This document shows positions 26,176 through 27,798 of a DNA stretch of 64,000 nt, one piece after another (the stretch's first letter is position 1; each line of letters starts with the position of its first letter). The position numbers and the translations under genes are program-made. The DNA lies in NCBI GenBank assembly GCA_002215645.1, contig NGFI01000008.1, positions 372,001-436,000 of the forward strand. The letters are read 5' to 3'. Origin of the DNA: Gemmatimonadetes bacterium 2013_60CM_65_52. Lineage in GTDB: Bacteria; Gemmatimonadota; Gemmatimonadetes; Gemmatimonadales; Gemmatimonadaceae. The notes beneath the pieces were generated by a model. It was not told the DNA's origin, searched no databases, and was given only the letters and a program-made list of their open reading frames with translations.

Positions 26176-26222
26176 TGACAGCCGATCTGACATTGCCGCA
26201 AGGGGCAGGAAGTCAGACCGGC

Positions 26223-26250
26223 TTGACTTGTGATGCCGGCCGCGTAACTT
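26223..26250 (+). promoter_or_regulatory. Promoter for the infC leader
   Basis: TTGACT (26223-26228), 16-base spacer, TAACTT (26245-26250). Transcription would start near 26257, giving a leader of about 180 bases before infC. The -10 hexamer is identical to one downstream of zapA (31914-31919). Confidence 0.55.
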
Positions 26251-26380
26251 TTGATCTGACAATCAGCTAAGCGATTGCTCCTCGGAGCAATCCACCCTCT
26301 GGCCCTCGCGCGAAGCGGGGCGTGCTACAGGCGTTCCTTCAGCAGCGCGGCCCCGCCAGTGCGGGTGTCGTGTCGTCGTT

Positions 26381-26416
26381 GCGGACCCTGTTCCAGAGGG
26401 TCCGCATTTTTGTTTT
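26381..26416 (+). terminator. Intrinsic terminator in the infC leader (attenuator candidate)
   Basis: GCGGACCCT and AGGGTCCGC form a perfect nine-base stem with a seven-base loop, followed by ATTTTTGTTTT. It ends 21 bases before the infC start codon and upstream of the infC ribosome binding site, so it interrupts any transcript from the upstream promoter. In Bacillus subtilis the infC-rpmI-rplT operon is controlled by L20-dependent attenuation at a similarly placed terminator. Whether L20 acts here is inference. Confidence 0.8.
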
Positions 26417-26437
26417 CTCTCATCGAGGTATACGAGT

Positions 26438-26953
26438 ATTCAGGACACCACAAAGCGCGTGCGGGTCAATCGCATGATCCGCATCAGTCCGGTCCGCGTG
26501 ATCGGCGCCGATGGCTCTCAGCTCGGGATTCTCGAGGTGGACGCGGCGCTCCGCATGGCGGAGGATGCCGGACTGGATCTGGTCGAAGTTGCTGCTACTG
26601 CCCGGCCCCCGGTGGTCCGCATCATGGACTACGGGAAGTACAAGTTCGAGATGGCCAAGCAGGCGAGAGTCGCGAAGAAGAAGCAGCACGTCATCGAGCT
26701 CAAGGAAGTGAAGTATCGGCCCGGCATCGATGACCACGACTTCGACACGAAGACGCGGCACGCGCGTCGGTTCCTCGAGGAGAAGAACAAGGTGAAGGTG
26801 ACCATGATGTTTCGTGGTCGGCAAGTCGCCCATCCGGAGCTTGGACAGGCCGTGCTGGACCGGGTGAGCAGTGCGTTGGCCGACGTCGGCAAGATCGAGA
26901 GCGCCGGCCGGCTGGAAGGAAAGTCCATGACGATGATTCTCACGCCCAAATAG
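26438..26953 (+). CDS. infC: Translation initiation factor IF-3
   Basis: A 171-residue IF-3, which binds the 30S subunit, blocks premature 50S joining and checks the start codon. N-domain (RVNRMIRISPVRVIGADGSQLGIL), basic linker (YGKYKFEMAKQARVAKKKQ) and C-domain (IELKEVKYRPGIDDHDF, VTMMFRGRQ) are complete. I place the start at ATT 26438, giving IQDTTKRVRVNRMI; GAGGT lies 8 bases before it (26425-26429). No ATG or GTG is found at the expected position, only GTG 26459 within the conserved part. A non-standard ATT start is the classic IF-3 autoregulation feature. rpmI follows after 12 bases. Confidence 0.93.
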   Translation: MQDTTKRVRVNRMIRISPVRVIGADGSQLGILEVDAALRMAEDAGLDLVEVAATARPPVVRIMDYGKYKFEMAKQARVAKKKQHVIELKEVKYRPGIDDHDFDTKTRHARRFLEEKNKVKVTMMFRGRQVAHPELGQAVLDRVSSALADVGKIESAGRLEGKSMTMILTPK

Positions 26954-26965
26954 ACAGAGCGTGCC

Positions 26966-27166
26966 ATGCCCAAAATGAAGACACACAAGGGCGCTGCGAA
27001 GCGTTTCAAGACCACCGGCACCGGAAAGGTCAAGCGCTACAAGGCGTTCAAGAGCCATATCCTCACGAAGAAGACCTCGAAGCGGAAGCGCGGACTTCGC
27101 CAGGCGGGACTCATCGCCACCAACGGCGAGCAAAAGCGCATCAAGCGCCTGCTTCTCGCGAGCTGA
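26966..27166 (+). CDS. rpmI: 50S ribosomal protein L35
   Basis: A 66-residue basic protein: [20 protein letters not shown] at the start, then [15 protein letters not shown], which is typical L35. It is the second gene of infC-rpmI-rplT. No strong Shine-Dalgarno is seen before the ATG, so translation may depend on coupling with infC. Confidence 0.97.
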
Positions 27167-27605: not shown

Positions 27606-27677
27606 CTGTCGGTCCGGTCGAACGCGTAGCGCATTGAGCAGTTGAGTCTTGCGACTTTTGCAAAGCCAAAAGCAATA

Positions 27678-27758
27678 AACCACAGAGAGCACAGAGGACA
27701 CAGAGGATCTGGCACGGCGCGAAGCAAGAACTCTGTGCTCTCTGTGTCCTCTGTGGTT
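27678..27758. repeat. ACAGAG-type inverted repeat
   Basis: Left arm 27678-27706 (AACCACAGAGAGCACAGAGG...) and right arm 27731-27758 (...CCTCTGTGGTT) are built from CACAGAGRR units in opposite orientation, with 24 bases between. The arms are not exact complements because the two unit types are swapped in order. Sequences of this kind occur between genes in many unrelated bacteria. It is followed by a T-rich stretch (27761-27785). Confidence 0.8.
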
Positions 27759-27798
27759 CATTTTGTTTTGTTGTTTTGTTTTTCACCATCGGCACGCA

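Follow-up and report, generated by a model that had tools for sequence, protein, structure and literature searches.

The operon infC-rpmI-rplT in the 64,000-nt stretch of DNA analysed here (the window), from a member of the Gemmatimonadaceae (phylum Gemmatimonadota; genome of 4.2 Mb in 14 contigs), poses a simple question: what does an intrinsic terminator do when infC starts 21 nt 3′ of it? An earlier note on this DNA had suggested that the terminator makes sense as an attenuator or as the end of a small RNA, and had drawn attention to L20-dependent attenuation of infC in Bacillus subtilis. Our analysis indicates that the 180-nt leader of infC-rpmI-rplT probably attenuates transcription under the control of a protein, with autoregulation by L20 as the likeliest case; that L20 is the ligand, in which direction the operon responds, and that termination and read-through actually occur are what we infer from the features and comparisons below.

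The leader and its conservation in relatives

The features of the locus, all on the forward strand, are given below. The extent of the leader core is that of its match to R1, a covariance model built on the core alone from 70 seed sequences, the window's leader among them.

26223..26250, +, promoter: −35 TTGACT (26223-26228), 16-nt spacer, −10 TAACTT (26245-26250); position-conserved in relatives
26260..26338, +, leader core (putative L20-binding domain); R1 match of 64.7 bits, E 8.8e-18
26269..26271, +, invariant AAG before hairpin H1 (the AA dimer of L20 leaders); identical in 70/70 leaders
26273..26292, +, hairpin H1, GATTGCTC-CTCG-GAGCAATC, 8 bp; strongest covariation of the alignment
26293..26298, +, C-ACCC-U: an unpaired C, then the P3 5′ strand (26294-26298); partner in the aptamer state, 26329-26334
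26304..26320, +, helix P2 (26304-26309 with 26315-26320); 73% of cells paired, both-side change at 4/6 pairs
26328..26336, +, switch strand CAGGCGTTC; partners are the P3 5′ strand (aptamer) or 26383-26390 (antiterminator)
26345..26373, +, variable spacer hairpin from core to terminator; predicted fold, sequence and length not conserved
26380..26416, +, intrinsic terminator: stem 26380-26389/26397-26406, T-rich tail 26407-26416; from sequence, fold and conservation
26383..26390, +, putative antiterminator 3′ strand GGACCCTG, identical with the terminator 5′ arm; from the own-versus-swapped pairing test in 110 leaders
26393..26401, +, CCAGAGGGT (also CCAGAGGGU), 9-bp complement of 26294-26302 ACCCTCTGG (also ACCCUCUGG); pairs valid
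26425..26428, +, ribosome binding site of infC, GAGG; from sequence
26438..26953, +, infC (IF3), start codon ATT at 26438; Pfam IF3_N and IF3_C
26966..27166, +, rpmI (ribosomal protein L35); Pfam PF01632
27181..27543, +, rplT (ribosomal protein L20, the presumed ligand); Pfam PF00453

The promoter (26223-26250), the hairpin (26273-26292), and the terminator with a T-rich tail to 26416 are all present where the earlier note had placed them. To these we compared the DNA 5′ of IF3 in 54 relatives of the same genus, family, and order and in about 70 further Gemmatimonadota loci (nine duplicates). Nearly all relatives carry the same series of elements, namely −35/−10, AAG-Y-(hairpin)-CACCC...P2...GUGCUGCAGGAGUCC, a variable spacer hairpin, a terminator, and infC, and the promoter, the three-part core, and the terminator are kept before infC-rpmI-rplT in about 110 of them. 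The pattern TTGAC-N16..18-TANNNT lies directly 5′ of the leader core in 74 of 112 relatives (at least five of six −35 matches), kept by position in the form TTGAC(A/C/T/G)-N16..18-TA(A/G)(C/G)TT, while 3 of 560 shuffles were positive under a rule looser than that used for the relatives. A generic promoter scan of the region in the window found none because the −10 is TAACTT. This promoter would put the transcript start at about 26258 (26257-26260). Next to the promoter on its 5′ side (26183-26219), we also observed an inverted repeat with mismatches (CTGACATTGCC...GGGCAGGAAGTCAG), and GATCTGACA occurs twice, at about 26183 and 26253.

The terminator stem has nine perfect base pairs (26381-26389/26397-26405), or ten if U26380-A26406 is counted, and TTTTTGTTTT follows to 26416. 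A pattern scan detected four terminator-like sites in 6 kb, which is not beyond chance (4.1 expected in shuffles), and the infC terminator alone among the four has a 10-pair stem. What takes it beyond chance is its conservation in relatives and not the scan: nearly all of them (about 110) have a terminator of the form GCGGACUC...GGGUCCGC-TTTTT located 20-60 nt (sometimes more) upstream of infC.

The earlier note had made its reading hinge on the hairpins being kept in relatives, and so they are, the terminator in about 110 of them and H1 as the strongest covarying element. In an alignment of 39 family members (A1), H1 had the top covariation scores with both-side changes at 8 of 10 pairs, and the structure of H1, P2, and terminator together gave 146 double-change cells against 49 in shuffles, a signal that collapsed when slid by one alignment column. 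The single-stranded and P3 positions are similarly constant in an alignment of 70 core sequences (A2): the C is present in 70/70, A39 in 68/70, and each base of CC in 69/70, and GG(N)GU appears in most rows. Checked base by base, P3 in the window pairs ACCCU (26294-26298) with AGG-c-GU (26329-26334), leaving C26332 bulged; P3 was predicted well in 59% of leaders compared to 4% with a shuffled strand. The whole leader folds better than its shuffles (z = −4.0). One further candidate, a CUG/CAG pairing of CUCUGG with CUGCAGG, was rejected, as it came without compensatory changes (at columns 46/87, C-A is replaced by U-U).

A switch strand shared by two helices

Three mutually exclusive states are available to the window's leader: an aptamer-like fold (26294-26298 with 26329-26334), an antiterminator (26328-26336 with 26383-26390), and the terminator (26380-26406). 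The antiterminator in the window would be CAGG(c)GUUC at 26328-26336 paired with GGACCCUG at 26383-26390, which a base-by-base check gave as 8 bp with C26332 bulged. More generally, a conserved leader GGAGUCC is complementary to GGACUCC in the terminator 5′ arm, and where a relative has GGCGUCC instead, its bulge is the same and its terminator arm has no matching U. The two segments change together across families (GGAGUCC with GGACUCC, CCGGGU with ACCCGG, CAGGGUCCG with CGGGCCCUG, and CUUCAGGGUUC with GGAUCUUGGGG), and in A1 each of the seven central antiterminator positions is paired in 90-100% (at least about 95% at five of the seven and about 90% at the other two), many through one-side G-U changes.

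The pairing score of 110 leaders was 17.41 with their own terminators. Swapped terminators gave 15.71 ± 0.28 (the highest of 200 swaps reached 16.4), and shuffled segments gave 12.2 ± 0.25; own pairs exceeded every one of 200 swaps in Gemmatimonadaceae alone and in the remaining families alone. In an unrestricted duplex search of leader against terminator arm, own and swapped pairs were indistinguishable owing to the high GC. Overall, leader segment and terminator arm coevolve as an antiterminator, and this pairing, kept in the aligned relatives and borne out by the swap test, lends strong support to the attenuator that the earlier note had envisaged before infC.

Folding of the growing transcript in the window is predicted to pass from aptamer to antiterminator to terminator. 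The energy minimum at 26340 is exactly H1, P2, and P3 (−30.9 kcal/mol), the minimum at 26392-26404 is the antiterminator (−62.5 to −73.1 kcal/mol), and from 26406 onward it is the terminator (−76.6 vs −73.1 kcal/mol). Across the 110 leaders, transcripts stopped before the terminator 3′ arm had on average 7.2 expected antiterminator pairs compared to 2.4 with the arm shuffled. The full-length fold without ligand favors the terminator by about 4 kcal/mol, so default read-through would rely on folding order.

We hypothesize the following mechanism. Transcription would start near 26258, and the RNA would first fold the core (AAG, H1, the unpaired C, P3 formed by ACCCU and AGG-c-GU, and P2). By default, the terminator 5′ arm (GGACCCUG) would then take over the P3 3′ strand (CAGGcGUUC), forming the antiterminator and letting transcription proceed into infC, rpmI, and rplT. 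Free L20 in excess of the demand of ribosome assembly would instead bind the core and lock P3, leaving the terminator arm free; the terminator would form, transcription would stop at 26411-26416, and the operon would be off.

In the window's genus, the antiterminator may be reinforced by a second helix. Positions 26294-26302 and 26393-26401 possibly form an outer antiterminator helix, nested around the first and specific to the genus level, which would also block the terminator 3′ arm. Seven to eight of its pairs are kept contiguous in 4 of 6 congeners, with similar cases in other families; in the own-versus-swapped comparison of 100 leaders, its score was 13.24 vs 12.78 ± 0.25, which is not significant.

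L20 as the probable ligand

In B. subtilis, as the earlier note pointed out, L20-dependent attenuation of infC is known, with L20 binding stabilizing the terminator (Choonee et al. 2007, as reported in PMC6097659). That survey places the L20/infC attenuator in Firmicutes (PMC6097659), RF00558-type L20 leaders have been described from Firmicutes and Thermotogales (PMC3766115), and other L20 leader types from Gamma- and Deltaproteobacteria (PMC7247131). We found no report of an L20 leader for Gemmatimonadota in the literature searched, most subscription papers being outside it, and the phylum is absent from the main text of PMC7247131.

The core of the Gemmatimonadota leader has the same arrangement as the RF00558 (L20_leader) consensus, AAG-a-(H1)-C-(gCC ... 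GGc), with the nucleotide match read by eye. Shared with the Firmicutes leader are the core AAG-N-(hairpin H1)-C-(RCC...GG-Y), where Y is C or U, the location upstream of infC-rpmI-rplT, the intrinsic terminator close to infC, and the non-AUG start of infC. Unlike the Firmicutes leader, that of Gemmatimonadota is GC-rich, has a larger GUGUGCUGCA segment and P2, forms P3 from ACCC and GG(N)GU (one base is bulged in most Gemmatimonadaceae), and scores below the Rfam threshold. A further possible difference is that its antiterminator uses the P3 3′ strand.

At the Rfam gathering threshold for RF00558 (58.7 bits), none of 60 Gemmatimonadota genomes gave a match, and two of the 16 sub-threshold matches in these genomes fell on infC leaders (genomes G010 and G019). 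The model matched neither the window's own leader nor, with the E cutoff relaxed to 3, any of 20 class-level leaders. For the leader of one relative (L008), RF00558 was the best of 4227 Rfam families, with 19.6 bits and E 0.09 in a short search, and the alignment placed AAG, H1, CACC, and terminator each on its counterpart; other families in the Rfam scans of leaders gave chance matches only. The link to L20 made in the earlier note finds support in the match of the core to the Firmicutes consensus and in the conserved operon, short of proof, as the RF00558 score is at best 19.6 bits on a relative and nil on the window. By its sequence, the leader appears to be built like and to work like an L20 leader, with RF00558 scores below those of formal members.

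L20 leaders outside Firmicutes offer further comparisons. A comparable deltaproteobacterial candidate, a predicted r-leader (Eckert and Weinberg 2020, PMC7247131), has an AA dimer and two G-C pairs in succession, proposed there to imitate 23S rRNA, on a different scaffold and in a different phylum. In a sequence-only comparison, the Gemmatimonadota leader has AAG and CC/GG where a mimic of the L20 site of 23S rRNA (AA dimer, two consecutive G-C pairs) would carry them, and the organism's own 23S rRNA has GAGU in the helix 40/41 region where the leader has AAG. No shared 10-mer and no clear copy were detected between the leader and this 23S rRNA. The gammaproteobacterial operator in E. coli serves the same infC-rpmI-rplT operon with the same presumed regulator; there L20 acts on rpmI translation, and both a long-range pseudoknot and another site within infC take part. 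The Gemmatimonadota leader differs in lying 5′ of infC and in having a terminator at its 3′ end.

The operon encodes IF3, L35, and L20 as its sole products (Pfam; in the window, pheST follows), and either of the other two, IF3 or L35, might bind the core of the same attenuator and promote termination. We consider this unlikely, as the architecture of the core is that of an L20-binding leader and we know of no leader that binds L35 or IF3 in such a way. In addition, IF3 probably regulates itself separately: its start codon is ATT, ATC, or ATA in all 62 aligned Gemmatimonadaceae (46, 13, and 3, respectively; 26438-26440 in the window), with ATG, GTG, or TTG in 0 of 62 at the aligned position. 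By analogy with E. coli, such an AUU-type start likely provides a second, translational layer of IF3 self-control.

Spread across Gemmatimonadota and possible relatives in other phyla

R1 matched 180 of 249 genomes across Gemmatimonadota at E ≤ 0.1, as a rule once per genome, and found no second copy in the window's genome at this cutoff. Among the matches from other orders of the class (non-Gemmatimonadales) for which the locus was fetched, 20/20 lie directly upstream of IF3; they score down to 33.9 bits, have a further terminator downstream, and most are not seeds of the model.

This distribution also bears on the small-RNA reading, in which the terminator ends a stand-alone RNA and expression of infC depends on leakage or on a promoter elsewhere. 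In its favor, the RNA bounded by the conserved promoter and the strong terminator is structured and about 155 nt long, and a working attenuator, too, would have to yield a terminated transcript. A small RNA, however, has no need of the coevolution seen between leader segment and terminator arm, which the earlier note's second suggestion leaves unexplained; the unit always stands directly before infC and was found once in the window's genome at E ≤ 0.1; and the 21 nt between terminator and infC in the window leave no room for a promoter. We therefore regard this reading as highly improbable. Least probable of all is attenuation through a translated leader peptide or a small molecule, which would share the layout of terminator and antiterminator, as hairpin and spacer lengths vary freely among relatives with no conserved short reading frame seen, the invariant bases lie close together around the H1/P3 junction, just like those of L20 leaders, and the operon genes are not metabolic.

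Returning to the L20 attenuator, we sampled phyla beyond Gemmatimonadota through loci L125-L136. RF00558 scored 56.5 bits on the infC leader of Marinilactibacillus, 52.7 bits on that of a TA06 bacterium, and 34.5 bits on that of a Clostridia MAG. The TA06 leader (a candidate division; L134:1376-1478) stands before infC and lies beyond the lineages reported for RF00558 in the surveys cited above. The infC leader of an actinobacterial MAG (L130:1289-1342) was matched by R1 with 18 bits (E 0.002) and has the order AAG-hairpin-CACC...CAGGG with a terminator downstream; it is possibly of the same leader type.

We see about an even chance that these leaders constitute an undescribed, phylum-wide L20 leader family that has its core in common with the Firmicutes leader, and to which the window's genus adds the second, outer antiterminator helix. 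If so, L20 attenuation of infC would be ancient and widespread and not a specialty of Firmicutes, with related leaders before infC in the TA06 bacterium and, weakly, in the actinobacterial MAG, and it would have escaped notice through the drift of each lineage out of reach of a single covariance model. The "parallel solution" raised in the earlier note is better described as one and the same architecture, which either predates the separation of the phyla or is a product of convergence. The leader bears directly on whether ribosomal-protein leaders originated repeatedly or descend from an old common leader, and would extend a mechanism known mainly from relatives of Bacillus to a distant phylum, in which no RNA-family model finds it. 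It also provides about 200 natural variants of a switch that hinges on one strand, used either by the binding fold or by the antiterminator, a resource for covariation-guided mutants.

At the other end of the operon, between rplT and pheS, a large imperfect palindrome (CCACAGAGAGCACAGAGGACACAGAG...) at 27660-27790 is followed by a T/G-rich stretch. The palindrome, which is a copy of a dispersed repeat represented in the genome by 69 matching pieces, could act as the terminator of the infC operon.
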